A model generated the notes under the pieces. That model was not told the origin of the DNA, searched no databases, and worked only from the letters and a program-made list of their open reading frames with translations. This document shows, in pieces, positions 18,212 to 56,100 of a stretch of 58,823 nucleotides of DNA. The DNA is taken from positions 1-58,823 of IMG/VR virus record IMGVR_UViG_3300009537_000010; one strand, given 5' to 3'. Position numbers and translations under genes: made by a program. The stretch is from a virus. The stretch's first letter is position 1; each line of letters begins with the position of its first letter.

Positions 18212-18456
18212 ATCATTTTTATGACAGCTTTGGAGAAGTAAATAATAGATGTCCTACATTAAATATGTGGGGATTTGTGCAATGTGCAGAAGGTAAAAGG
18301 AGAAGTATTCAGGACATTCAAGCATTGCTTAATTATTACTTTCCTATAAAGCGGCATTATCATACTGTTGAAGATATCATAGATAAACTTAAAAACTATG
18401 CAGATAGGGGCATGTATTGTCCAAGTATTAATAGATACACATATAGATTCAGATGA
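18160..18456 (+). CDS. Hypothetical protein, 98 aa
   Basis: Not recognised. Basic with several Cys and Tyr. Starts inside the polymerase 3' end (52-nt overlap) and ends with an ATGA overlap with the ATP-grasp gene. Confidence 0.55.
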   Translation: MRKLKFRGIKRGTYLSINHFYDSFGEVNNRCPTLNMWGFVQCAEGKRRSIQDIQALLNYYFPIKRHYHTVEDIIDKLKNYADRGMYCPSINRYTYRFR

Positions 18457-19247
18457 ATGCAATAGTATCAAGTTTTAGAGGAGTATTTAATATAGTGGAA
18501 CAGATGAAAGAACCTGTCTCTGTTTATATTAAAGGTAAGCTTGTCAAAGGAGAAAGAGGTGAAATTGATACTCTCATCAGATGGGGTTGTAGAACTCCAA
18601 TGAAAGCAAAACAGTATATAAATCTCTCTAAAAACATAGGTCATATCTCTGACAAAATAACTGCCAGAGAGATATTAAAGGTACCTATGACAAAAGAATA
18701 TATAGAGGGAGATTTTGATACCATTATTGGCAGACCTCGATTCCATAGAGGAGGTAGAAATTTTCATGTTTGTACCACTGCGGAAGAGTATGAAGAAGTT
18801 AGAGAATTATGTGATTATTTCACTCATTTCTATCCTAAGACAAGAGAATTTAGAGCACATGTTGCTCATGGTAAAATATTGGTGCTGCTGGAGAAAGCTC
18901 CATGTGAAGGAATAGCTTGGAATCATACCTTAAATGAAGAAGCGTGGACAGTAATACCATGGAATGATTACGATACAGAGATTTGCAAGCTTGCATTACA
19001 AGCTGCGGATGAAATAGAGGTTGATTTTTGCGCGGTTGATATATTAGCATATCCAGAAGACAAAAGACTACACAAACAAGTAGTGTGTGAGTTAAACAGT
19101 TCTCCTGCTGTAGAAGGTTATACTGCAGAGAGATATGCTAAATACTTTGACTGGTTGTTAAAAGGGGAAAGAGAACATTTTAATTGGAAGAACTGGACTG
19201 AAGCAAAAAGCTTTGCCTTTAAAAATAAACAGTTATGCGCAGGATAG
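18453..19247 (+). CDS. ATP-grasp ligase, RimK/amidoligase-associated type
   Basis: ATP-grasp features in order: a lead-in NLSKNIGHISDKITAREIL, a nucleotide-loop segment IIGRPRFHRGGRNF (about 90-103), REFRAHVAHGKI (about 132-143), DFCAVDILAY (about 190-199) and the metal-binding CELNSSPAVEGYT (about 211-223). ATP-grasp enzymes activate a carboxylate as acyl-phosphate and join it to an amine. ATP-grasp ligases are known companions of phiEco32-type COOH-NH2 ligases and class II amidotransferases, which occur here 12 kb downstream, so a shared pathway is inferred. Substrate unknown. Confidence 0.75.
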   Translation: MNAIVSSFRGVFNIVEQMKEPVSVYIKGKLVKGERGEIDTLIRWGCRTPMKAKQYINLSKNIGHISDKITAREILKVPMTKEYIEGDFDTIIGRPRFHRGGRNFHVCTTAEEYEEVRELCDYFTHFYPKTREFRAHVAHGKILVLLEKAPCEGIAWNHTLNEEAWTVIPWNDYDTEICKLALQAADEIEVDFCAVDILAYPEDKRLHKQVVCELNSSPAVEGYTAERYAKYFDWLLKGEREHFNWKNWTEAKSFAFKNKQLCAG

Positions 19248-22079: not shown

Positions 22080-22304
22080 GTTACGATACCAGATTTAAAA
22101 ATAGGTGTTTTTCATCAACTTCAATCATCTGAAGAGTTGGCAATCCAAAAGTCATTAAGATTTATGAATCTTGACGAAAATAAAATTGCTCAGCTCTATA
22201 TATTTGCGTATGCGAATACAGTTGACCAGGAGTGGGTTGAGAAAGCCATAAAACCATTTAAAAATATTACTTATGCTTATTGGGATCAACCAACTATGCA
22301 ATAA
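22080..22304 (+). CDS. SF2 helicase, 3' part
   Basis: An open segment with no start codon of its own, reading VTIPDLKIGVFHQLQSSEEL and then AIQKSLRFMNLDE. This completes motif V and supplies motif VI (Q...R). An in-frame stop at 22062-22064 lies just upstream, so it cannot be translated as a fused part of the preceding ORF. It ends by overlapping the start of the peptidase C26-type gene, as expected for the original helicase 3' end. Confidence 0.75.
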   Translation, partial: VTIPDLKIGVFHQLQSSEELAIQKSLRFMNLDENKIAQLYIFAYANTVDQEWVEKAIKPFKNITYAYWDQPTMQ

Positions 22305-22896
22305 AACAAATAATTACAATGATCTGTTCTCCAAATACGGAGATGTTGTAAATGCTGGATTAAGATTTAATCCAGATATAGAGTTTTTAGTTTTAACAGG
22401 AGGAGCAGATGTAGATCCAGCTAGATATGGTGCAAAAAGAGAGAAACAGACTAGTGATCCTGACCCTTGGAAAGAGAAATTTGATACAGAGCTATTACCT
22501 CTTTACATTGAAAAGGGTATACCTATAGCAGGTATCTGCAGGGGACATCAGACGTTAGCAGTCAACCAAGGTATGTCATTAACTCAACATGTACACCACA
22601 CATGGATGAATGTAATACTATTTGATGGTTACTATCATGTAGTTAACTCTTATCATCATCAGGTAGTTACTGAAGCAAATGAAAATGCTGAAGTTGCTGC
22701 CATAGATACTACATTTGGTACAATTGAAGCGTTAAGATATACTAATATAAATGCTATATCTGTACAATGGCATCCTGAATTACTTTACGAAGACTGTGAA
22801 GTAACCAAAAAACTCCTATCAGAAATTGGAATTAAAGAACCAGTTAAAAAACTTAGGAATAGAAAAAATAGATTCAGTTCTATTATACCTTTTTAG
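22273..22896 (+). CDS. Class I glutamine amidotransferase, peptidase C26 (PuuD-like)
   Basis: Starts MLIGINQLC and shows the GGADVDPARYG substrate loop (about 40-50), the nucleophile in GICRGHQ (about 82-88) and the WHPE His/Glu pair (about 172-175), which together form the Cys-His-Glu triad. C26 enzymes hydrolyse gamma-glutamyl amides. With the gamma-glutamylcyclotransferase and GS-fold amidoligases at 30.4-34.4 kb, this suggests gamma-glutamyl chemistry. The C-terminal about 23 residues overlap the next gene. Confidence 0.85.
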   Translation: MLIGINQLCNKTNNYNDLFSKYGDVVNAGLRFNPDIEFLVLTGGADVDPARYGAKREKQTSDPDPWKEKFDTELLPLYIEKGIPIAGICRGHQTLAVNQGMSLTQHVHHTWMNVILFDGYYHVVNSYHHQVVTEANENAEVAAIDTTFGTIEALRYTNINAISVQWHPELLYEDCEVTKKLLSEIGIKEPVKKLRNRKNRFSSIIPF

Positions 22897-27846: not shown

Positions 27847-28725
27847 ATGATAGGAGGAGCAGGTTTTAATCTGAAACATAAAATAAAAGAGTGTGATCAG
27901 GCAGCTTTATTTAAGAAGTATTTTGAAGTAGATCCTGATTTAGGAAGACGATACTTTTCTATATTTCGTGAGGACAATCATGGTGACTGTAGATTTGAGA
28001 TGATTGATGGTGTGCTCTTTTTTGTCGACAATGCTGGTTACAATGGAAAGATTTACTTCAATATTTATAGCGCTCTAAAGGAAATAGGTTTATCTCACTC
28101 TGATATATTGAAACTCCTCTCTAAGAAGGGTGTAACAGATATACCAGAATCTGAAGGTAAAAGAGCAGAGATTGAGATAGGTGCTATTCCATGGGAGAAA
28201 GGTAATCGCTTTGAAGTTTATGGCTTAGATGCGGATTTTCTTAACAATGATCCTCATACATTTGATGTGTTAGCTTTCTCCATTAATGGCAGGTTGATTA
28301 ATCAAAGAGCTACAGGATATGTTTGCAATAATCATGTGAAGTTAAGAACTATAGATCATCATATCAACAACTTTGAAGTTGATGATATAATGAATGTAGG
28401 TTATCTTGATAGATTTTCAAAAGATATTATAGGAATCATAAAGGCAAAAAAGGATGCACTTGTTGTTGAAAAACATTTGAACATCCCAAGCCTTATCATT
28501 TACAATGAGAGAGTAATACTTCCTGATTGGGCCATCGACATAGCGAAGACTTATAATGATGTTTTTGTGTTCATGGATAACGATAAAACAGGAAGAGAGT
28601 CAGCAGCACAATATAGAAAGCGTTATGGATTTCGTAGTGTGTTTACTGAGGAAAAGCACATAACTGACTTGATAGATAAGAAAGGTTTAGATTACGGAAT
28701 TGAAACATTAAAAAATATAATATGA
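27847..28725 (+). CDS. DNA primase with Toprim domain
   Basis: The N-terminal part (YFSIFREDNHGDCRFEM, about 37-53) resembles the catalytic-core entry of DnaG-type primases. The Toprim domain follows: a strand-Glu site DALVVEKHLNIPSLI (about 202-216) and VFVFMDNDKTGRESA (about 240-254) carrying DND-x-x-G. No N-terminal CHC2 zinc finger is seen, as in several phage primases. It should make RNA primers for lagging-strand synthesis. Overlaps the next gene by 4 nt. Confidence 0.78.
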   Translation: MIGGAGFNLKHKIKECDQAALFKKYFEVDPDLGRRYFSIFREDNHGDCRFEMIDGVLFFVDNAGYNGKIYFNIYSALKEIGLSHSDILKLLSKKGVTDIPESEGKRAEIEIGAIPWEKGNRFEVYGLDADFLNNDPHTFDVLAFSINGRLINQRATGYVCNNHVKLRTIDHHINNFEVDDIMNVGYLDRFSKDIIGIIKAKKDALVVEKHLNIPSLIIYNERVILPDWAIDIAKTYNDVFVFMDNDKTGRESAAQYRKRYGFRSVFTEEKHITDLIDKKGLDYGIETLKNII

Positions 28726-29276
28726 TAAAGCTATTTCACAACAACATCGTTGACCATGAGGAACAGCTAGATGGGTGTCTGGCAATTGCTAAGTTTGGTG
28801 GAGATCCTATCACCAAAATAGAGATTGCTCTTGCAGGAAGAGACAGGCTGACTGTGGATGAAATCAAGAAGTTCTTCTATTTACTGAAGAGTAAACTTGA
28901 GTTTTATGGGACCTTTAAATGCGTTGTTAAAGGTAGAAATATAGTTATAACCTGGACATATCGTAAAGGAATCAACTACGGAACAAGACTTTACTACCTT
29001 CTTTCAATGATGAGAACTGTTTGGTTACATCCAGAAGTAGTTAAATCTTTTTTAAAATTATGCAAGGTAATGGATGCACAAGCAGCATTCGTTATGGCTT
29101 GTATGAAACATGGTGCTTTTGGAGATGGGAAGGACATCATACCTGATTTGGTTGATATGATTCCTTTGTTTACAGACGTAGAGGTAGACTCTGGTAATGA
29201 TCTTTGGAATTACATGGATGAAGTAGATGATGCGGAATTTCTAGACACTATTGTTAATGAACTCTGTAAAGGATAA
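28722..29276 (+). CDS. Hypothetical protein, 184 aa
   Basis: Not recognised. Mixed N-terminal domain and an acidic C-terminus (NYMDEVDDAEFLD). Lies between primase and uracil-DNA glycosylase, overlapping both, so a replication or repair role is likely by context only. Confidence 0.55.
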   Translation: MIKLFHNNIVDHEEQLDGCLAIAKFGGDPITKIEIALAGRDRLTVDEIKKFFYLLKSKLEFYGTFKCVVKGRNIVITWTYRKGINYGTRLYYLLSMMRTVWLHPEVVKSFLKLCKVMDAQAAFVMACMKHGAFGDGKDIIPDLVDMIPLFTDVEVDSGNDLWNYMDEVDDAEFLDTIVNELCKG

Positions 29277-29901
29277 GATAGAAGAACATATTCATGATAG
29301 TTGGAAAGAATTATTTTATGATAAATTTTCCAATGTTAGAATGAAACTTCTGGAGAAGGTGATAGAGTCTGATAAAGAAGAGTCTAATGTTTTTCCAAGT
29401 AAATTTGAAGATATATTTAAGATTTTCAAAGTTCCTATTGACAAAATCTCATGTTGTATTGTCGGACAAGATCCATATGCAAGAGCAGGACAAGCAATAG
29501 GAAGATCGTTTGCAGTTAGTGAAAAGACTCCTGTTCCCTTGAGCTTGAGAGTAATGTTCAAAGAAATAGAAAGAACTTATGGTCATGTCTATACTGATAG
29601 AACTCTTCAACATTGGGAAGATCAAGGAGTTTTTTTACTAAATATGGCATTAACTGTAAGACAAGAAAGGTCAGGATCTCATTTGCCTTATTGGGAATTC
29701 TTCACAGAAGATGTAGTGAGAATATTAAACGACAGAGATATCCCATTTTTATTAATGGGAGCGTTTGCTAAAAAATTACAAGTGAAAACTGCAGTGAAAA
29801 CACTTCACCCTGCAGTAGAAGGATACGGTAAATTAAAGTTTGTAGGAAATGATGCATTTACCGAGTTAAATATATGGTTAAATGACAAAATAATATGGTA
29901 A
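29257..29901 (+). CDS. ung: Uracil-DNA glycosylase
   Basis: Matches the UNG family: water-activating loop IVGQDPYARAGQAIGRSF (catalytic Asp at residue 72 from the ATG at 29257), the LLNMALTVRQERSGSH segment (Asn in the uracil-binding position) and the Leu-loop HPAVEGYG. The usual GQDPYH reads GQDPYA here, so the His next to the catalytic loop is replaced. The enzyme removes uracil from DNA; UNG-like genes are frequent in Crassvirales replication blocks. A TTG at 29251 would add two residues. Confidence 0.88.
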   Translation: MNSVKDKIEEHIHDSWKELFYDKFSNVRMKLLEKVIESDKEESNVFPSKFEDIFKIFKVPIDKISCCIVGQDPYARAGQAIGRSFAVSEKTPVPLSLRVMFKEIERTYGHVYTDRTLQHWEDQGVFLLNMALTVRQERSGSHLPYWEFFTEDVVRILNDRDIPFLLMGAFAKKLQVKTAVKTLHPAVEGYGKLKFVGNDAFTELNIWLNDKIIW

Positions 29902-30416
29902 CAGTATGGAAAGAGGGCAATATAGTACATCAGAGAGAGAGTTTGTATCTTTGCTCTGAACATGTAAGAAAAATACACGGAGACGAAATAGTAATATCTG
30001 GAGAACTTGTATCGACTCCTGCTAAAGAATATGTTAATAACTTAAATAAGCTAGGGCTTCCTGGGGTATTTAGTTTTAAAGATAGGATATTACGTTGGAA
30101 AGGACCAGATCAAGGAAGAAACAGATTGTATTTTATTCTTTGTCTTGCAAGATATCCTTTTAACCGCGCTAAAGTAGTTAGAAAGTTTAATATAGCGTGT
30201 AAATATGTTTCTTGTAAAGAGGCGCTTATGTTAGCGCATTATAATGCACCTTTTGATAGAAATGTTTTTCCGGGTAGATTCAATCGTAGAGTTACGGACT
30301 TTGAATTTAGTAAAATAGATAACAGAAGATTGGGTTTGCAAGATCAATTTACTACGGAATTTGTATATCCACCAACACAAAATCTTGATTTGTGGACTAA
30401 ACTTGAAAATATTTGA
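29895..30416 (+). CDS. Hypothetical protein, 173 aa
   Basis: Not recognised. Basic and mixed, with SRxNRLYFILCLARYP-like core (GRNRLYFILCLARYPFNR). Located between the glycosylase and the amidoligase operon and may be the operon's first gene. A polyA stretch follows the stop. Confidence 0.55.
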   Translation: MVTVWKEGNIVHQRESLYLCSEHVRKIHGDEIVISGELVSTPAKEYVNNLNKLGLPGVFSFKDRILRWKGPDQGRNRLYFILCLARYPFNRAKVVRKFNIACKYVSCKEALMLAHYNAPFDRNVFPGRFNRRVTDFEFSKIDNRRLGLQDQFTTEFVYPPTQNLDLWTKLENI

Positions 30417-30423
30417 AAAAAAA

Positions 30424-31122
30424 ATGATTATTGGATCTGATTTTGAAGTACCAATCTATGATCATAGAAGGGGTATTTATGTCTCAGCCATTGGCCTTAT
30501 TGGTGGTACTAAAAAAAGACCACTTAGTATAGGAAATGGTTGCTTTAGACAAGAGGACAATGTAAGCGCGGAATTCAATATTCCACCAGTTAATAATGTA
30601 AAAGATTTCAAAAAGTTTATATCCTACTGTCTCGAACAGGGCGAGGCTATAATTCAAAAAATTAATACAGATTATCGCTTTGATATAACAAGTTCAGCAA
30701 GATATCCAATGGGAGAACTTGGTGATATGAAAGCGTGGGAATTTGGATGTGAGCCAGCTATATGTGCATATGATAAGTCTATAGTAATATCTTCTGAAAC
30801 AGAAGATACTCTAAGAACTTTTGGATTTCATATTCATATTAATGCTGATCAAAATCCATATGAGCTTGTAAAGAAGCTTGACTATTTTCTTGGGTTACCA
30901 TCTTTAACAATGGACCCAGATGATGAAAGGAGAAGGCTTTATGGAAAAGCAGGTGAATGTAGAGTTAAAGAGTATGGAGTTGAATATCGAGTACTTGGTT
31001 CCTATATGTTAAATTTCCAAGATTTCGTATGGGAGAAGATAGAAGAGGCAATTAAATCAAAATTAAAAATAAAAGATGCAGTCAGAGAAAAAATTAATAG
31101 CAGTATACGGGTCACTGCGTAA
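30424..31122 (+). CDS. phiEco32-type COOH-NH2 ligase (GS-fold)
   Basis: MIIGSDFEVPI supplies the N-terminal Glu strand typical of glutamine-synthetase-fold amidoligases. FGFHIHINADQNP (about 136-148) gives the His-x-His metal/ATP site, and DPDDERRRLYGKAGECRVKEYGVEYRVL (in two stretches, about 166-193) carries the Arg/Glu cluster of the phage COOH-NH2 ligase type 2 family. These enzymes are predicted to use ATP to join a carboxyl to an amine. First recognisable member of a four-gene operon with overlapping starts. The start at 30424 is chosen because it begins the conserved strand. Confidence 0.8.
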   Translation: MIIGSDFEVPIYDHRRGIYVSAIGLIGGTKKRPLSIGNGCFRQEDNVSAEFNIPPVNNVKDFKKFISYCLEQGEAIIQKINTDYRFDITSSARYPMGELGDMKAWEFGCEPAICAYDKSIVISSETEDTLRTFGFHIHINADQNPYELVKKLDYFLGLPSLTMDPDDERRRLYGKAGECRVKEYGVEYRVLGSYMLNFQDFVWEKIEEAIKSKLKIKDAVREKINSSIRVTA

Positions 31123-31435
31123 AGGAGAATATAACTACAGCTCAAGAGACTTAAATTATATTAAAACTGTAACTATTCCTGGATTCGATCTATTTTCCCT
31201 GGGAGCATATCCTGGAATTAGACCCGGAGAAGGAAATTTGGTTATAGATATTATGGAATGTGATGTGCAAACTAAGCAGGGTATTGACCGAATGGAAATT
31301 AGAGCAGGGTATAGTGCTGAAAGTATTAATATTGATGGTCTTAATTGTACTATCTATGTATATAAGCATGATGTGAATCCCGATCAACTGGTTGAGTCAG
31401 GAGATTGGACAAAAAGAGAAGTATGTGTGGACTAG
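31076..31435 (+). CDS. Gamma-glutamylcyclotransferase (AIG2-like)
   Basis: The signature AVYGSLRKGEYNYS (residues 9-22) is the YGSLRxGxxN loop of the GGCT/AIG2 fold, and a plausible catalytic Glu follows (IDRMEIRAGY). The fold releases gamma-glutamyl groups as pyroglutamate or acts on related amides. It overlaps the COOH-NH2 ligase by 47 nt and the amidotransferase by 13 nt, so the three are translationally coupled; pairing of GGCT-like enzymes with amidoligases is known from phage and bacterial gene neighbourhoods. Confidence 0.82.
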   Translation: MQSEKKLIAVYGSLRKGEYNYSSRDLNYIKTVTIPGFDLFSLGAYPGIRPGEGNLVIDIMECDVQTKQGIDRMEIRAGYSAESINIDGLNCTIYVYKHDVNPDQLVESGDWTKREVCVD

Positions 31436-32910
31436 CAGGATTTAGTGGCAAACAACCAGCAAATCCTTACAAGATATTACTATTGGGTACATTAAACACC
31501 ACAAGAGGTGTAGATAGTTGTGGAGTATATATGGCTAATACTATCATTAAAGGAATTGATAAAACAGCAAACTTTTGCAATTTAGTTAAATCAAAAGCAT
31601 TACCTTTTGATACAGCAAAGCATAATACTATATTAATTCACACAAGGAAGGCTAGCTATGGTGCTCATAATGTTAAAAATGCTCATCCATTTGCATATCC
31701 ACAAGATCAGGGATTTACATTTGCATTCATGCATAATGGTCATCTTCAGGATTTACATAACCTGGCTAAAAAGTATGGTTATAATAGTTTTGCTTCAGAG
31801 TTTGATGTGGATTCGCAATTACTTGGAGAAGTAATATTTAAAAAAGATCTTAGTATCCTATCTTACTATGAAGGAGATGCTGCTTGTGTATGGACATCAG
31901 TGAATGAACCTAATACTATTTACTTATGGAAAGGTGCTCACAAGTACGAAGATGATAAAGATCTCACGGTGGAAAGACCATTGTACTATGTAATTGAAGA
32001 AGAAGGATTATACTTTTGCTCAGAAGCAGGAGCTTTAGAATGTATTACAGACTTTTCTGAAAACATAAAGGAAGTTCCCAACAATACTGTTTTAAAGATT
32101 GCAGAAGGAGAAATAGTGGAGAAAAAGAGAATGAAAAGATACTACCACGAAAAAAAGTTAGTAACCTCTTCAGTGGCTGTAACTACTGCTACCACTACCC
32201 CTGCATCTGCGACGACTTCTTTGATGAAGAAACGTTTTACAGAAGCAATGACATCCTCAGGAGGAAACAGAATCTTCTGGTTTGATGGTAGATATTTCTA
32301 TGGTAAATCTACAGCTCATGGGGTTATAAAAGTGTCCATAAATGGTAGAATAACAGAAGGAGGAGAAACCTTATATTTCTATCACGGAATACTTGCAAAA
32401 GACGAAGAGGCTTTTGATGAGATGTGTAAAGATATGTTTATAACTGAAAATGCCATTGAAGAAGGAAAGTGTAGTCACATGCTTACTAATCTTGTACATC
32501 CTGGTTCTCTAATACGAGGACAACATGGTTGGTACAAGAAAGGTGGTGAGTATCATGCATCAACTGGAGAATGTCATCCTATTTTCTCTTTCTATAGAAT
32601 GATATTATCTGGAGGTCAAGTTTCTCAATTATTCTCGGTTCAGACACATCAGTATAGAAAGAACAATGAAAATTATATAAAATCAGAAGAAATGCAACAA
32701 ACAGGCCCAATAGAAGATGAATATACCACTGGTTTAGCTGAAGATGTATTAAGTAGAGCAGCGAAGGAACTAATAGCTAAAATAGATGAAACTACCTCTG
32801 TTCTCGAAGATTTTGTAGACAGTGTAGACCCATCAATACTAGAAAAACTTATGCTCTTTGAGGATATGCGTAAAAAATTAATTGAATTGCAATGGCAGAC
32901 ACAGTTGTAA
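31423..32910 (+). CDS. Class II glutamine amidotransferase
   Basis: Starting at the ATG at 31423 gives MCGLAGFSG, so the Cys at position 2 can be the N-terminal nucleophile after Met removal, as in GATase II enzymes. Further family features: TRGVDSCGVY, LIHTRKASYG, NAHPF and FAFMHNGHLQD. It supplies ammonia from glutamine. The C-terminal half (about 250-495) is an extra domain that is not a known synthetase partner; it begins after a Thr/Ala linker. Sits between the GGCT and Amidoligase_2 genes with short overlaps, so its ammonia or amide is probably used by the amidoligases. Confidence 0.87.
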   Translation: MCGLAGFSGKQPANPYKILLLGTLNTTRGVDSCGVYMANTIIKGIDKTANFCNLVKSKALPFDTAKHNTILIHTRKASYGAHNVKNAHPFAYPQDQGFTFAFMHNGHLQDLHNLAKKYGYNSFASEFDVDSQLLGEVIFKKDLSILSYYEGDAACVWTSVNEPNTIYLWKGAHKYEDDKDLTVERPLYYVIEEEGLYFCSEAGALECITDFSENIKEVPNNTVLKIAEGEIVEKKRMKRYYHEKKLVTSSVAVTTATTTPASATTSLMKKRFTEAMTSSGGNRIFWFDGRYFYGKSTAHGVIKVSINGRITEGGETLYFYHGILAKDEEAFDEMCKDMFITENAIEEGKCSHMLTNLVHPGSLIRGQHGWYKKGGEYHASTGECHPIFSFYRMILSGGQVSQLFSVQTHQYRKNNENYIKSEEMQQTGPIEDEYTTGLAEDVLSRAAKELIAKIDETTSVLEDFVDSVDPSILEKLMLFEDMRKKLIELQWQTQL

Positions 32911-34364
32911 CTATTTCCGGTAAAAAAGTAAGCAAGTCAAGATGTAGAAAGATTGGTGACGACTACTATAAAATAGGAGATAATCAAATCAAAGACTCAG
33001 GCGACTGTTATCTTATTGACGGAAAGTATGTAAGAATAAACTCAGGTTACATAGAGTTTGATCATATGACAAACGAATATGTAAGAAAAACTAAGGTAAA
33101 CTTATTAAAAGGAGTAGTGGATATCAAGAATGGAGTTCTTATAGAGGGATATTTTAGCGATAATCCTAGTGAAGTTTTTTTGATACACTACTCTGCTTCA
33201 GGTACAGTCCCTTGTATGAATGAGGATGTTATTAAAAAGTTACGTCTTACCTTTTTTAGTACAGGCGGTCTGTATACGCAAGGTGCAAGATCTGAACATG
33301 GTAAAATGTCATATTCAAAATTCAACACAGGGTTGTACTCCGTAGATGAAAATTCTCTGTCCTTTGTTGATAAGTGGAGATATAAGTTTAAAGAAACTCC
33401 TTTTTCCAAGCTTATACCTTACAATGTAGGTATTGAGTATGAAACAGATTCAGGAAATGTTCCAGAGCATTTATGTGTAAGAAATGGATTGATTCCTATT
33501 AGAGATGGCAGTATAGGTGGTTATGAGTATGCTACAGTGGTGATAGAACCTGAAGAGTTGAGTATGATCGAAGCTCAGTGTGAAGTTTTAAGTTCTCACT
33601 GTCATGTTAAAGCTTATTGTAGTGTTCATAATCATATGGGAAGGTATCCAAAGAATGAATTGAAGGTGCTGGCCTTGTATGAACTATGTAGAAGGATTCA
33701 GGAGGAAGTTTTTAGCTTTTTACCACCATTTAAGAAGGATGTGAGATATTTCGTATCTAAAAAAGAAGCAAAAGACCATTGTCAAATGCTTCCCAATTTA
33801 GCTATACAAGTATTTCAAAACAATGAAATATCTTCAGAAGCTGTATCAATGTATTTCAAAAGATTATTGTTGTTTTTAAATGAAGGAAATACTCCTGAAA
33901 AGATTAACGACATTTATGTTCATGCCAGAAGTGGAAATAACAAATGGGACTACAAAAGAAGATACTATTGGGTAAATTTCATTCCTCTTCTATTTGAAAG
34001 GAAAGCAACTGTAGAATTTAGAGCACATCATGGTACTCTCAATAAACATAAAGTGTTAAAATGGTTAGAGATTACCAATGCAATCATGAGATTTGCAGAT
34101 GCTTATCCTGAATTGATCTTGAAAAGAGAAGAAAAAATAACATTAATGGATGTTATTCAGGGTTATCGTAATAATTTTGGAGCAGGTAACGTAGACGGAT
34201 CTAGTCTTGCTGATAGTATATGCAGATATATTAAGTCAAGGCAAGAAGATTTCTTCGAGTATCTGATGCAAGATAATGTATTCTGTGATGCAGAATTCGC
34301 CAAAGATAGTCAATTTACGTGGGAAACAATAGAAGAAAAGGTCACGACTTTGAACGCAGTATAG
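32892..34364 (+). CDS. Amidoligase_2 family enzyme (GS-fold)
   Basis: The amidoligase core starts at YNVGIEYETDSG (about 177-188). It continues with IRDGSIGGYEYATVVI (about 201-216, the metal-binding Glu strand), the His-rich YCSVHNHMGRYPKNE (about 239-253) and LLFERKATVEFRAHHGTLN (about 364-382, Arg/Glu site). The roughly 170-residue N-terminal part is not recognised and could bind the target. Members are predicted ATP-dependent carboxylate-amine ligases. Last gene of the operon; overlaps the amidotransferase by 19 nt and the next nuclease gene by 46 nt. Confidence 0.78.
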   Translation: MADTVVTISGKKVSKSRCRKIGDDYYKIGDNQIKDSGDCYLIDGKYVRINSGYIEFDHMTNEYVRKTKVNLLKGVVDIKNGVLIEGYFSDNPSEVFLIHYSASGTVPCMNEDVIKKLRLTFFSTGGLYTQGARSEHGKMSYSKFNTGLYSVDENSLSFVDKWRYKFKETPFSKLIPYNVGIEYETDSGNVPEHLCVRNGLIPIRDGSIGGYEYATVVIEPEELSMIEAQCEVLSSHCHVKAYCSVHNHMGRYPKNELKVLALYELCRRIQEEVFSFLPPFKKDVRYFVSKKEAKDHCQMLPNLAIQVFQNNEISSEAVSMYFKRLLLFLNEGNTPEKINDIYVHARSGNNKWDYKRRYYWVNFIPLLFERKATVEFRAHHGTLNKHKVLKWLEITNAIMRFADAYPELILKREEKITLMDVIQGYRNNFGAGNVDGSSLADSICRYIKSRQEDFFEYLMQDNVFCDAEFAKDSQFTWETIEEKVTTLNAV

Positions 34365-49001: not shown

Positions 49002-49027
49002 AGAGAAGGGGGAAACCCCTTTTCTTT
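49001..49027. terminator. Bidirectional intrinsic terminator
   Basis: AAGAGAAGGGG / CCCCTTTTCTT around a short loop, U-rich on both strands. It closes the rightward lipoprotein gene and also the leftward giant gene whose TAA lies at 49026-49028. Confidence 0.75.
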
Positions 49028-52000
49028 ATTGTGTATAATATTTCAAAGTCTCTTCAGGTGTAAACCATCGTTCAACCTGATCTACTGGTGGAATAAGTTT
49101 TCTACTCTTTACCCATAAAAATGTTTCACCTTTATGTTTACCTGATTGATATACCCGTAAAAAAGGTTTATCATTTACCATCCAGCCATAAGGATCAACT
49201 GCGGTAAACAGATCAATTATGTTTTGAACTTGCATTACACCAGCACTTGGAGCTTTCATAATTCTCATAAATTCATTAGGATTAGCATAAAATCCTAATT
49301 CAGACCTTAGTCTGTTAACTTGTAATGCAAACGTATTCAAGAGGTATTTATCATCATCGTCAGCTCCCTCACCTAAGGCTCTCAGTATTCCACCTGCTAC
49401 TACAGCAAATGTAAATTGAGCCATTCCAGTAAGTCCTCTTAGTATATTTGCTCTTTGCCAATCTTCCAACTGGTCATAGTAGGCCATAAGATGAAAGCTG
49501 CCTGCTCTCATCTCACTGATCAAACCTGACATAAACTTGAATAAGGAAATATAAGTTCCTTCATTCATTTTCTCAGTATTGTAATCATAATGTTTTCCCA
49601 CAAACCTTCTCGAAATACCTGGTGGCATCCATGATCTAAAGACCATGGCCATCCTACCTATTGCCCACTGTTTAGCAGCTATTCTATCCATGTCTCCCAT
49701 GTTACCGTGTAACTCACGGTTGAGCTGTTGAATTTTCAGGTAAACTTCCGCTTCGTTTATTTTAACTCCTTCCTTTAGTACTGCTTTGTTATTATCTACC
49801 TTGTATGCCTTAAGCAGTGGTATCTTTTCCCCTTTATATTCTACTTTTATGTTGTTTAAGATGGATAGACCCATTCTTGAACCAACATGTACTTCACCCA
49901 TTCTGGTTGCAAAAAGAGCATGGCTCATGTTAAGCTGACGTTTGAACCAGTCTCTGTCAGTATTCATGCCATATAGCCTAGAGGTATAATCTTGAACCAT
50001 ATCATATTTGTCGATTAAGAGTCGCAAAATATTATTAGTAGTTAGATTACCTATACTGCCAAGATATCCTGCACCATGTCTCATCCAGAAGTTATCAGCT
50101 GCTTGAATATCACTATTGGTTACGTGTTGTCCAGCTACACCCTCTTGTCTAATCAAGAAGTTAGAAATGACAGGGTTAGCTAAAGCTGCACTTAAGTTAA
50201 GAGCAAGTCCTTTTAGTCCCACATATTTATTGAATGTGTCAGCTAGTTTAGCCGTATTAAATTCAATATAGTAGCCACCTCCCTTCTTTGGTAACCATTT
50301 AATATCCTCTCCGGGTTTCTTACTTTTACCATACATATGCATTTGTAGAAAGTCGTGATAACGATCTGCTACAAACCCGCCTGTTCTAATTACTTCTTTT
50401 ACATTCTTATCTATAAGAGATCTAAACTTACCTAACCAGGTTGGTTTTCCTGTTATCTTTCTCTTCTTTAGCACATCCTCTCCCACCTCAAGTATGTCAA
50501 TGTAATCCTTCATTGTTATATAATGTTGAGCCATTTCCATATATAACAACAAAGATCTCGTCGGATCATCACTTAGATCTGAAGGATCTATCTTCCTGAT
50601 AAAATTAACAGGAAGAGTGTCATACCTCTTGTTATTCTCATCTGTAATAACAAATTCTCCTCCAAACTCTGTTTCGTCTTGTCTTTTGTTAAACCATTCG
50701 TACATTTCTTGCTTGATTGCATCAAATGGTTTGTCTTTTATCCTCTCCATTAAATCTTTATGGACCTGAACAGCTCTATGTGGTACTCCCATTGGTAGTA
50801 ACTTATCAAAACTAGCTTTCAAATCCATGTAGTACTTATAGAATTTCTTCTTTGCAGGATCAGCTTGTATCTCATCGTATTGAAGATTACTATATCTCTC
50901 ACTAGGTCTCAACAGCTGACCTTTAACGTAAAAAGGATCTTTATGTGATCTCTCTCGATAAGCAGAATAACCTATATTCTCATTTACCCATTCCTGAAAT
51001 AGACGTTGTACATATTTTTCATCCTCATTTAACGCTGTCTTACCTTCACCTAATGAAGGAAACCATTTATGATATCCTTTAATGGTGTTTCTAATTATTT
51101 GATCTATAGAGTCCTGATTTATATCGTGAAACTCATCTTTATAGAGTCTCGTAATATAGTCCATTATGATATTAGGAGTATCAGGATTTTCTTCAGTGTT
51201 ATCCTTCATCCAAATAGCCCAGTCTCTATTGTACATTTTTCTTGTAGCGTCAATCTCTGCAAGCTTCTGTTCTACATCATTGGAGAATCCAGTATAAGCG
51301 AATTTCTTATTCAATCTCTCTCTCAGATAAGCGTTCGGTTTCCAGTTCTTTACAGTTTCAGCATCATAAATAAATAGTTTTCTCCTATCTTCCGCATCTT
51401 CTGGTAGTCCATATTTCTCTATTAACTCTTTACTCATTTTAGCTTCTTCTCTTTCATACTCCTCCATATTCCTATCTGTTACTAAATTGTTAGTAGGTTT
51501 ACCATCAACCTGTTCTTTCATCCACTTAAAATCCCCAACTTTTTTCTTTGTCTCTTCAGCTATAACTAAAAGATCTTGACCTTTTGCATGATTAATGATT
51601 CTATCTTGAGCTTGCAAGTGTTGAACAGCTCTGGCTACACCACCCAAAACATCGTTAGGAGTCTCTGCCATGGCTGATAAGAATCTGTGATACATGTTAA
51701 TATCCTTGCCTTCCTTAAGCATAGCTACTAGGTCATCACGACTGTGAATATCAGGGTGATTCTTAAAATGAGGAAGAATGTAATCAGCTATAAGATAAGG
51801 CGCATCATTTTCATAAAGAGTAATGAGATCATCAATAGTTGATTGTATTTTTATTAACTCATTTCGTATTTCTGTGTAACGTTCTCCATCATACTCAGCT
51901 AAACCTGCCTTAATATTACGAATAATACCATTATAGGCTTCTGCTAATGAATTAAGATCTTTAAGATGTTTAGCTATTATGTTTTGTTCTGAGCTTAGTG

Positions 52001-53171
52001 CTCTGTCTTTTATTCTTTTGTATTTAGTAAAAGCTCTCTCAATGTCAGAACCTATATAATTGATAGCATTCACAACACCATAAGTAACCTTATCATTATG
52101 GAGCGCCCTGTTAAGCGTTGTTAACCGCTTGTTAATTTCAGTTTTATTTACAGCTTTATCTTTAGTGTAAGCTATTTTTGTTCTAAGTATAGTTTTATTG
52201 ATAGTTTCTTCAAGCTGTTCTTTAAATCTATTTAATATTGTAGATTGTTCATATTTCTCAACATCAATATCAAAATAAAACTTGTCTGTTAAATCAAAAT
52301 TAGGATCAACATTAGCTCCTATTAAGTCTTTAGCAATATCATTTATATGAGACTGTAACTCTTCGTGGTTGTTAAAGAATGACATAAACTTATCCCAAAG
52401 ATGAGTGATAACATTTGCCAGTCTTCTATAAGGTTTAATGTTATTTCTAATCTGATTCCAAATCAATCTATCAAGTACCTCTTTTCTTACATCCTCTTCG
52501 TTACCATATTTGCTCATGTAAGCATCGTGTAACTCTTCATATTCTTTAGTCTCTACAACTAACTCTAAAGCTCTCTTATAACGAAAATCATCCTTGAGTC
52601 CTACAGTTGCAAAGTGAACCACCTCTTGAGATAAGGCTTTTTCGTTACCCTTCTTGACAGCTATAGTTCTGTTCAGAATATCAACGATACCCTGAACATC
52701 TTCATCCAAAACCTTACCTGTCCTCTTTTTGTATTCATCATGGTATTCCTCAAAGATACCAACCCTTAAACCTAATTTAATCATTAATGATCTAAGAGTG
52801 TCAAGAACTTCATCTCTCTTTTCTACAACATCGTCTGGTACTTTAATCTCACCCTCATCTTCTACAAAGGTTTGCTGTTTAGCAAAGTATTCTGCTATCT
52901 TCTGTTCAGCAATAGGATTAATGTTAACCTTAATTCTCCTACTTCTATCCTGTCCTACTATCCTTTCTCCATACTGCTTGTTGATACTGTTAATTAGAGC
53001 CATTCCATCTTTAATACGCTCTGTGTCATATTTAGGTAAGTACAGTCCTTTATTGGCTCTCCTAAATAATTTACTGTCTTCCAGACGAGTCATAACTGAC
53101 TTATAGATACCATAAGCTATTTGAGCTTCTGTATTCTCGTACTTTCTTTTATTGTGGATGAAACAACTCAT
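49026..53171 (-). CDS. Giant virion/cargo protein, 1,381 aa
   Basis: Follows the virion RNA polymerase with a TAATG overlap. The N-terminal and middle thirds are long charged helices; the C-terminal about 300 residues are less charged, with Gly/Ala-rich hydrophobic stretches such as LALNLSAALANPVISNFL and FTFAVVAGGILRALGEGADD. In Crassvirales, giant proteins encoded beside the polymerase are packaged in the capsid and ejected with DNA, so a cargo or ejection role is likely. I see no enzyme motif. The open frame extends to a TTG at 53180, but ATG at 53171 fits the overlap. Confidence 0.75.
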   Translation of the reverse strand: MSCFIHNKRKYENTEAQIAYGIYKSVMTRLEDSKLFRRANKGLYLPKYDTERIKDGMALINSINKQYGERIVGQDRSRRIKVNINPIAEQKIAEYFAKQQTFVEDEGEIKVPDDVVEKRDEVLDTLRSLMIKLGLRVGIFEEYHDEYKKRTGKVLDEDVQGIVDILNRTIAVKKGNEKALSQEVVHFATVGLKDDFRYKRALELVVETKEYEELHDAYMSKYGNEEDVRKEVLDRLIWNQIRNNIKPYRRLANVITHLWDKFMSFFNNHEELQSHINDIAKDLIGANVDPNFDLTDKFYFDIDVEKYEQSTILNRFKEQLEETINKTILRTKIAYTKDKAVNKTEINKRLTTLNRALHNDKVTYGVVNAINYIGSDIERAFTKYKRIKDRALSSEQNIIAKHLKDLNSLAEAYNGIIRNIKAGLAEYDGERYTEIRNELIKIQSTIDDLITLYENDAPYLIADYILPHFKNHPDIHSRDDLVAMLKEGKDINMYHRFLSAMAETPNDVLGGVARAVQHLQAQDRIINHAKGQDLLVIAEETKKKVGDFKWMKEQVDGKPTNNLVTDRNMEEYEREEAKMSKELIEKYGLPEDAEDRRKLFIYDAETVKNWKPNAYLRERLNKKFAYTGFSNDVEQKLAEIDATRKMYNRDWAIWMKDNTEENPDTPNIIMDYITRLYKDEFHDINQDSIDQIIRNTIKGYHKWFPSLGEGKTALNEDEKYVQRLFQEWVNENIGYSAYRERSHKDPFYVKGQLLRPSERYSNLQYDEIQADPAKKKFYKYYMDLKASFDKLLPMGVPHRAVQVHKDLMERIKDKPFDAIKQEMYEWFNKRQDETEFGGEFVITDENNKRYDTLPVNFIRKIDPSDLSDDPTRSLLLYMEMAQHYITMKDYIDILEVGEDVLKKRKITGKPTWLGKFRSLIDKNVKEVIRTGGFVADRYHDFLQMHMYGKSKKPGEDIKWLPKKGGGYYIEFNTAKLADTFNKYVGLKGLALNLSAALANPVISNFLIRQEGVAGQHVTNSDIQAADNFWMRHGAGYLGSIGNLTTNNILRLLIDKYDMVQDYTSRLYGMNTDRDWFKRQLNMSHALFATRMGEVHVGSRMGLSILNNIKVEYKGEKIPLLKAYKVDNNKAVLKEGVKINEAEVYLKIQQLNRELHGNMGDMDRIAAKQWAIGRMAMVFRSWMPPGISRRFVGKHYDYNTEKMNEGTYISLFKFMSGLISEMRAGSFHLMAYYDQLEDWQRANILRGLTGMAQFTFAVVAGGILRALGEGADDDDKYLLNTFALQVNRLRSELGFYANPNEFMRIMKAPSAGVMQVQNIIDLFTAVDPYGWMVNDKPFLRVYQSGKHKGETFLWVKSRKLIPPVDQVERWFTPEETLKYYTQ

Positions 53172-56100
53172 TATTCGCAAGGTTTAAAATCTTCTCCCTC
53201 AATTTCTGAGAGTCCTGGTAGCTCTTCTGGCTTATTAACAGGAGCTGGTAAAGCTTCACCAGTGTAATCAGGAACCTGATAATAGTTCCAATATTCGTTC
53301 TCCAAGTAATCATTCTTTGGAGTTAACTCTTTATATTCATTTTCAGTACGCTTAAACAATCTCCATTTCTTATTCTTGTAAGTCTTAACGTACAAGGCAC
53401 CTTGTCCTTTTGTAGTATTAACCTGTCTTATAAAGTTCAACCTAGGAAAGAAATTAGCGATGAACTGCTCTTTAAAGTTATGATGTTCTTGCTTTAATGA
53501 CAAGGAATCATCAATTAATTCTTGTAAGTTAATAGCTCCCCACATTGAGAGAGGAATTAGATTAGAAATGGAATTAGGAGCAAATCTGACACCTGATTGC
53601 AAGAATGCATAGTAGAATAAGTTACCAGCAAATCTTCTTTGTTCTTCAGTACCATTTAACCACATTCTCTCTATCTCTCTTCTAATTAATGAAGCTTCAT
53701 GCTTTCCAGGATCACCTCTTTTCATCAAAAATCCTTCCTTACTCATTCCCAAAACTGACTTAGTGTATTCAAACCCAGTAAGATCAGGAAGTTCATCAAA
53801 GAATTTACTAGCTCGCTTAGCTACAAGTTCTCTTCTGAGTTTTTTAGACGCTAAGAAAGACATAAAACTATGATATAAGAGCTTACTATCTCTGGTTGAA
53901 ATATAACTACCGGAAAGTTCTGTAAAATATTCCTGCATCTTGATAAATGCTTCGTTTCCATAAGGTAATTTTGCTACCTCATATAATACATTTTGAGCAC
54001 CTATTATACCTAAATCAAAAAGAACATTATTAGCAATCCTTTTATCATTAAAAAACTTATCAGCATTTAATACTGCAAGATTTTCCATATAAGGTAACAT
54101 CTCTCTTCGATTAATAATATCGGCAGTTTCTACAAACGACTTACCTACACCATCATCGGACGTTTGAGCTACTAATATCACCTTTCTATAAACGTCATCA
54201 GCTATTTGTTTGTATACAATAAACGTATTAACCAATTCTTGCTTTCTAGCTACATGTTCTAAGGAACCTTCAGGAACTTTTTCAGTCAAATATTTGTTTG
54301 TGAGTGGTACAGTATTACCTGTAATATTTATACCTTCACTCTGTAATGCGAGCCTTACCATGAACTCACCTTCAGATCTAATCTTATCTGTCAGTTCTCT
54401 AATAATAGGATTACTAATGAATCTAAGAGTAATCTCAAGAGGAACTCCCATTATTCTAAACATTAAAGCAACAGGAGCAGTATACTCATTGAGGTTAACT
54501 CTACTCATTCGAGGATCATTCCTATCGTCTACAGACGCACCACCTAAGTCTGATAAACCTTGACTAACCAGATCTCCATCTAAATCTTCTGTTACTCCAA
54601 GTTTAGTAAGTTTTTGATCTCCAATTAGAACAGACCTTTTAGTATGTAAATCACCAAACATTTGCATTGCAGGAAAGGCTGCAGAAAAGTCAGCTACCAT
54701 ACCAATCAATGCTCGGGCATCATTATAACTAGCGACAACATCAGCTCTGACGTTAATATCAAGAAGATCAGGATCATTCACAGGTGGAGCAATCTTATCT
54801 ACAATTTCTTTAAAGTTATTAAAATCGCCGGGTATCAACTGTTCTTTTTGTCTCTTCTGAAGCATATTCAACATCAGAGACAGTGTTCTATCATGTAAAC
54901 TTGATCTATCCTCAGTTTCAAATGTGATCAATGAGGTCTTGTCGATATCAAAGTCATGACCTGTCATAATTATAAGTTCCTGTGGCATAGTTATACCACC
55001 GTTCCCTAAAGTCCTTTTAGTTACTTTAAATCTAAACATAGACCTGAAACCTTCAGTAGGAGTACGATAAGCTATACCCTCTGTTCCAACAGGAAGATCA
55101 GCCCACGCTTCTGCATATAAGAAATCACCTTGATCACTCCACGCTAATCTGGGTGGATTTTCAAGTCCCCAATCTGATATATTATAAAAAGCAGCACCTG
55201 GAACTTTTCTGATTGTAAAGTTGTTCTTTGGGATGGAATTTACAGTAGCTTCCAATGAATTAGAATGTACTGGAATATACCAAGGAATCTTGTCAATAGC
55301 TTGAATAATATCTTCAGGCTCCCCTCTTTCTCTCATCTGTCTAACCACAACGTCTCTTGCTGTTTCTGTGTTAAACATTTTAACAAATGAGTTCCAACGT
55401 TTATGGTAGTCTTCTTTTAATAAGTTGTTATAATTTTCAAGATCTTCAGGATCAGCATTAGTTTGGATCATCTTCTTCTTCTGCGTACCATCTTTAATGG
55501 TCTTATATTTAACAGGAGTTTCTTGTTGATGACCCCAGATGTCATTCATGAAAGTATGTTTATCACCAAATAAACCAACCTTTACAGCTGAAGAAAATAC
55601 AAAATGATCCGTGTACTTACCGTTATCTCTACCTTCCTCATCAAAAGTTATTTCCTCTCCAAACTTATAACCCATTTTTTCAAGAAGAGCCTTCCTTGCT
55701 GGATGGTTTCTTGCTTCACTAGGAATAAGTATAGCTTCTGACAGTTTATGTTCTACAGGATAAACAGAGTCTCCCTTTTTGACAATACCATAAATGAAAG
55801 ATTTGACTACCTCAAATACGTCTCGTACATCTTTAGGAGTTTCCTTACCAGCAAGAACTCTACGATATGCTTTCTCTTTTTTGACATTCCAGCGACCCAG
55901 CATCATCTGTTCCTCTCTAAAGCGATAAGGGTCAATAAACGATTGAGAGTCTGATCTATCTATTCTCTCATAAGCATCAGCTTCATCTCCAATTAAATTT
56001 CTAATCTTATCAATATCAGGAGAGGTCTGTGGTTCATCATAAAGATACTCTACGTTATAAGTAGTTCTTACGCTATGTGTTTTTCCCTTATCATCTGTGA

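Follow-up and report, generated by a model that had tools for sequence, protein, structure and literature searches.

The gene cassette and its carrier

Four overlapping genes for enzymes of amide and gamma-glutamyl chemistry lie at positions 30424-34364 of the virus record IMGVR_UViG_3300009537_000010, the whole of which was analysed here (58,823 nucleotides, hereafter the window); this 58.8 kb record is possibly a genome fragment. An original prediction made from the sequence described a complete operon of two ligases of the GS fold, a glutaminase and a gamma-glutamylcyclotransferase. Family searches, PHROG matches and the intact reading frames bear out the identity of all four genes:

30424-31122, plus strand: COOH-NH2 ligase, 232 amino acids (PF14395, E 6.7e-11; phrog_3815, E 4.8e-50)
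31076-31435, plus strand: gamma-glutamyl(amine) cyclotransferase (GGCT) of the GGACT/AIG2 family, 119 amino acids (PF06094, E 1.7e-14)
31423-32910, plus strand: class II glutamine amidotransferase, 495 amino acids, starting MCGLAGF (PF13522, GATase_6, E 1e-8)
32892-34364, plus strand: Amidoligase_2 protein, 490 amino acids (PF12224, E 1.1e-5; phrog_2443, E 2.1e-30)

Consecutive genes overlap by 47, 13 and 19 bases, and the four Pfam matches all exceed the cut-offs of that database. The run is not complete, as at least two further enzymes of the cassette sit 8-12 kb upstream, where they were detected with profiles seeded from the cassettes of relatives and run over all the open frames of the window:

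18453-19247, plus strand: RimK-like ATP-grasp ligase, the fifth member (PF08443, E 5.7e-5, over the cut-off; phrog_2599, E 2.2e-14; cassette-seeded profile, E 1.8e-45)
22273-22896, plus strand: Peptidase C26, a gamma-glutamyl hydrolase of the class I amidotransferase fold, the sixth member (PF07722, E 4.5e-30; cassette-seeded profile, E 2.8e-37)

The window holds a divergent copy of an already described phage amidoligase cassette, with real and intact genes, which is both fuller and less unusual than was first thought. Its carrier is a crAss-like phage, judged from the RNA polymerase subunit and the replication genes: the 1384 amino acid product of 49026-53180 (minus strand) finds its best matches among crAss-like RNA polymerase subunits and the DnaB helicase of the window among crAss-like phages, in support of the assignment made originally.

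Enzyme families and predicted folds

The AlphaFold2 models of the two ligases (mean pLDDT 95.3 for the COOH-NH2 ligase and 87.1 for the Amidoligase_2 protein) place both confidently in the GCS/GS superfamily by fold. In the Foldseek ranking of PDB entries both retrieve glutamate-cysteine ligases (2gwc; YbdK 1r8g and 1tt4), followed by glutamine synthetases and the Pup ligase and depupylase. The COOH-NH2 ligase, predicted to be a gamma-glutamyl (carboxylate-amine) ligase, matches the plant glutamate-cysteine ligase (GCL) 2gwc with E 2.8e-5 and YbdK 1r8g with a TMq of 0.63, while the matches of the Amidoligase_2 protein are YbdK, GCL and PafA. With glutamate-cysteine ligase family 2 (2gwc, 1r8g) the predicted catalytic-domain fold is shared, whereas identity is only about 10%, and sequence searches for solved relatives of either ligase returned nothing convincing.

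Loss of the catalytic residues, which had been named as a finding that would speak against two GS-fold ligases, did not occur, and profile matches, models and alignments agree on this assignment. The alignments comprised 63 ligases and 55 Amidoligase_2 proteins, in each case the window sequence with its relatives from viral contigs. Invariant or nearly invariant positions kept by the COOH-NH2 ligase are D6/E8, E50, H136/H138 and E187/R189, with a phenylalanine between D6 and E8 where relatives usually have proline; those kept by the Amidoligase_2 protein, in which a beta-rich region precedes the ligase part, are E182/E184, D205, E212, H246/H248, K351 and E375/R377 of an E-F-R motif. At four related loci (L024, L025, L063 and L066) the COOH-NH2 ligase is spread over a pair of open frames, in some cases separated by about 1 kb; an intron, a frameshift or an insertion may be the cause.

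The remaining members are also intact. GGCT keeps the YGSLRKG motif and the conserved glutamate (RME..GY) and matches YtfP in the PDB (1xhs, E 1.6e-12). The amidotransferase has an Ntn domain with its catalytic cysteine (C2) right after the methionine and the other invariant residues in place; it matches PurF structures in the PDB and carries an extra C-terminal region of no recognised fold. Peptidase C26 shows the Cys, His and H-x-E motifs (AGICRG, NSYHHQ and QWHPEL) and matches Lin1909 (3fij) and PuuD (6vtv) in the PDB, its nearest NCBIfam being, below cut-off, gamma-glutamyl-CDP-amidate hydrolase. The ATP-grasp ligase is 35% identical to its cassette counterpart at locus L014.

Conservation among related phages

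No relatives were found when viral contigs were scanned with the Amidoligase_2 protein alone, and alignments were needed: 80 loci were collected with an Amidoligase_2 alignment and 80 with a COOH-NH2 ligase alignment. Removal of near-copies and the requirement of at least 7 kb upstream left 69 loci in the set found through Amidoligase_2; the set found through the ligase numbered 53. The class II amidotransferase is present at all 69 loci, always directly upstream of Amidoligase_2 and with a gap of less than 100 bases, together with the COOH-NH2 ligase (67), ATP-grasp (62), C26 (58) and GGCT (52), and 41 of the 69 have all six enzymes. The ligase-found loci give a similar picture for the amidotransferase and Amidoligase_2 (52 of 53 each), ATP-grasp (49) and C26 (42), with GGCT at 19. 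Failure of the four genes to co-occur in relatives had also been named as grounds for giving up the prediction; the counts show linkage instead. The pairing of two GS-fold ligases, first taken to be unusual, is the rule, being found at 67 of the 69 loci as well as in phi14:2, PaP3, TC6 and an Alcaligenes phage. Six intact enzyme families are, in short, conserved together in phages.

In most relatives ATP-grasp and C26 lie inside the cassette, and dispersed arrangements like that of the window occur also at L056, L097 and L109, among others. That all six enzymes are kept though split between places argues that they act together. A single open frame at L113 (7823-8965) encodes a GGCT domain and, behind it, a C26 domain, and this fusion supports a joint action of the two removing enzymes. 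Proteins of about 300 amino acids without assigned function lie inside the cassette, beside ATP-grasp or C26, at L004 (3147-5048), L059, L079, L083 and L086; in the uncultured phage cr108_1 two such proteins are similar to each other.

The COOH-NH2 ligase matches 306 named records, and named Pseudomonas, coli, Vibrio and Alcaligenes phages carry the set; the hosts of the named phages listed are almost all Gram-negative. When bacterial and archaeal genomes were scanned with one ligase pattern, matches were found in eight metagenome-assembled contigs only, so that the set looks phage-specific.

Neighbouring genes

The cassette of the window lies among replication genes, as does that of phi14:2. 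Two genes precede the four-gene run:

29251-29901, plus strand: uracil-DNA glycosylase (UDG)-like gene (PF03167, E 1.1e-6), a neighbour and not a member of the pathway
29895-30416, plus strand: protein without assigned function directly before the ligase, with no Pfam or PHROG match

A UDG-like gene also adjoins the cassette in phi14:2 and cr108_1. In the window it is flanked by two weak paralogues, 28722-29276 and 29895-30416 (phmmer E 3-4e-4), which were considered as cassette members and rejected, as neither has relatives in the 169 other loci. PADLOC returned no defence-system match. Beside the RNA-polymerase-like protein, an open frame of 1846 amino acids (53171-58711, minus strand) has no PHROG match and is possibly another crAss-like virion or polymerase protein.

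Proposed pathway and target

The enzyme families present support the original idea of a phage pathway in which amide or gamma-glutamyl groups are both attached and trimmed off, and gamma-glutamyl/amide ligation plus removal is the likely chemistry. From what is known of these families, the COOH-NH2 ligase and the ATP-grasp ligase would join ATP-activated carboxylates in gamma-glutamyl or peptide-type amide bonds, while the class II amidotransferase would split glutamine and pass the ammonia to Amidoligase_2, which would turn a carboxylate into a primary amide. Gamma-glutamyl groups would then be removed by C26 through hydrolysis and by GGCT as 5-oxoproline, and gamma-glutamate may serve for a time as protecting group or carrier. 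Less certainly, the acceptor may be a cell-envelope precursor, most probably the peptidoglycan stem peptide, modified on the cytoplasmic side of the membrane in mid-infection. Envelope precursors are the favoured target, and the reading as a whole, that of a crAss-like copy of the phiEco32/PaP3/RIO-1-type cassette which carries out such ligation and removal, probably on an envelope precursor, is held with middling confidence.

A membrane-side substrate is favoured by the amidotransferases of many relatives. Of 136 non-redundant amidotransferase rows, 34, phi14:2 included, begin with a hydrophobic segment, predicted from the open frame, that abuts the catalytic cysteine (for example L002:7811-7900, which is phi14:2 g040, L036, L046, L050, L062, L063, L068, L082, L085, L105 and others). 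The segment has 26-33 residues (48 in one case), is usually followed by basic residues and has no methionine before the cysteine, so that a free cysteine would arise only after cleavage; the distribution of charges suggests a catalytic domain on the cytoplasmic side. Variation is highest at third codon positions (431 vs 393 and 278), as is weakly expected of coding DNA, and the other cassette families have no such segment, except for three hydrophobic matches in Amidoligase_2. A more specific and speculative proposal, which we regard as rather unlikely, is that many crAss-like amidotransferases are membrane-anchored proenzymes whose cysteine is freed by cleavage, that the pathway works at the inner membrane face, where it amidates or gamma-glutamylates lipid-linked precursors of the cell wall, and that the copy of the window is a soluble version. 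If true, it would represent a phage-encoded chemistry of peptidoglycan remodelling not known from bacteria.

Several observations weigh against an envelope target. The amidotransferase of the window starts Met-Cys, with no membrane segment, and on a quick tree of the family the segment comes and goes, with at least eight changes forced by the starred branches; the absence from the window copy and the repeated gain and loss indicate that a membrane location is not essential. The hydrophobic prefix is read as coding from long frames in AT-rich DNA and from the missing internal start. No enzyme of the cassette closely matches a known peptidoglycan enzyme family, and the ligases resemble glutamate-cysteine ligases, makers of soluble metabolites. 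ATP-grasp and C26, 8-12 kb from the four-gene run, may be regulated separately. Finally, the literature found contains no experiment that names the product of the cassette in any phage.

A first alternative is that the product of the cassette is a soluble small molecule of gamma-glutamyl or amide type, similar to glutathione or to an antibiotic, made with gamma-glutamate as a protecting group and acting on host metabolism or defence. Protection of this kind has precedents in the BtrJ/BtrG pair of butirosin biosynthesis and in the PuuA/PuuD route of putrescine. The nearest folds of the ligases are indeed glutamate-cysteine ligases and YbdK; PuuD is among the matches of C26, as is gamma-glutamyl-CDP-amidate hydrolase, though below cut-off; the majority of the enzymes are clearly soluble, and GGCT enzymes act as a family on small gamma-glutamyl amines. 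However, neither a carrier protein nor a tailoring enzyme specific to a substrate was seen to be conserved along with the set, and a soluble product leaves the membrane-segment amidotransferases of many relatives unexplained, so that we consider this explanation possible, if on the unlikely side.

The resemblance of the ATP-grasp member to RimK and the presence of PafA and Dop among the Foldseek matches could also point to the tagging or amidation of proteins (host RNA polymerase, translation factors or phage proteins), in the manner of RimK-type ATP-grasp and Pup-ligase-like GS-fold enzymes; protein modification by phage peptide ligases was predicted earlier (PMC4431377). Such a role appears distinctly unlikely, since the crAss-like form of the set was not seen to be accompanied by a conserved small protein or peptide as acceptor, and C26 and GGCT, as far as their families are generally known, act on small gamma-glutamyl compounds and not on proteins. 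Even less probable is a role as auxiliary metabolic genes that supply the host's amino-acid metabolism with nitrogen, the proposal made for phage ZRK32, whose record matches the ligase of the window and for which such genes and a raised growth on nitrate or ammonium were reported (PMC10945688): three ATP-driven ligases with two gamma-glutamyl removers would be a poor way to assimilate nitrogen, and the set looks phage-specific. A hypermodified DNA base with an amide-linked adduct would suit a cassette that, in crAss-like phages, has genes of replication and uracil excision around it, but is very improbable, as no hydroxymethylase, kinase, deazaguanine or other base-synthesis or DNA-transferase gene was seen beside the set in the window or the annotated loci.

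Comparison with known phage cassettes

The link to phiEco32-like phages drawn originally is supported by the enzymes of the window: like the phiEco32-type cassette, it has both ligases, an amidotransferase adjoining Amidoligase_2 and ATP-grasp (here detached); of GGCT and a class I amidotransferase-fold hydrolase, either of which would suffice, it has both. Published interpretations differ. The cassette has been called "peptidoglycan modification" and proposed to bar superinfection or to prepare lysis (PMC5498523; PMC11945000), while for the Planctomycetes phage ZRK32 genes of this kind were assigned to nitrogen metabolism (PMC10945688) and the account of UFV-P2 names them but gives no pathway (PMC3890496). 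In PaP3, ORFs 42-48 are homologous to the cassette and fall in the middle expression class (PMC4707531).

Both GS-fold ligases, the class II amidotransferase and ATP-grasp are shared by the cassettes of phiEco32-like, PaP3/LUZ24-like and RIO-1-like phages and of the Zobellviridae, which usually have GGCT or a class I amidotransferase too. The order in PaP3 is ligase, a protein of about 190 amino acids, Amidoligase_2, amidotransferase, ATP-grasp and GGCT. This small protein, with an RQWKRGL-like motif (L008:6785-7363, L007:8363-8932; about 40 frames), stands between ligase and Amidoligase_2 at podovirus-type loci. It has no match in the window better than E 9.7 and occupies that place in no crAss-like locus, which makes it a subtype marker only; a kinship with either the C-terminal part of the amidotransferase or the N-terminal part of Amidoligase_2 was considered and rejected, the matches being weak and insignificant.

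Leptolyngbya phage Lbo-JY46 and cr108_1 share with the window the ligase, a C26-type protein, ATP-grasp, the class II amidotransferase and Amidoligase_2, but differ in their uninterrupted runs and in extra genes that are class I amidotransferase-like or unassigned. The cassette, noticed more than a decade ago, is widespread, spans several kilobases and is conserved as a block; should peptidoglycan be remodelled, it would represent a new route of phage cell-wall takeover. The cultured carriers phi14:2, PaP3 and the phiEco32-like coliphages make this directly testable. Among them phi14:2, a crAss-like phage of Cellulophaga (NC_021806), has in common with the window GGCT, the COOH-NH2 ligase, the class II amidotransferase and Amidoligase_2 (g037-g041), with UDG adjacent, the proteins being about 27-39% identical. 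Its genes follow in a row as GGCT, ATP-grasp, ligase, amidotransferase, Amidoligase_2 and UDG, so that, unlike in the window, GGCT comes first, ATP-grasp is inside the run, where no C26 was found, and the amidotransferase has a hydrophobic N-terminal segment before its cysteine that the window copy is without.

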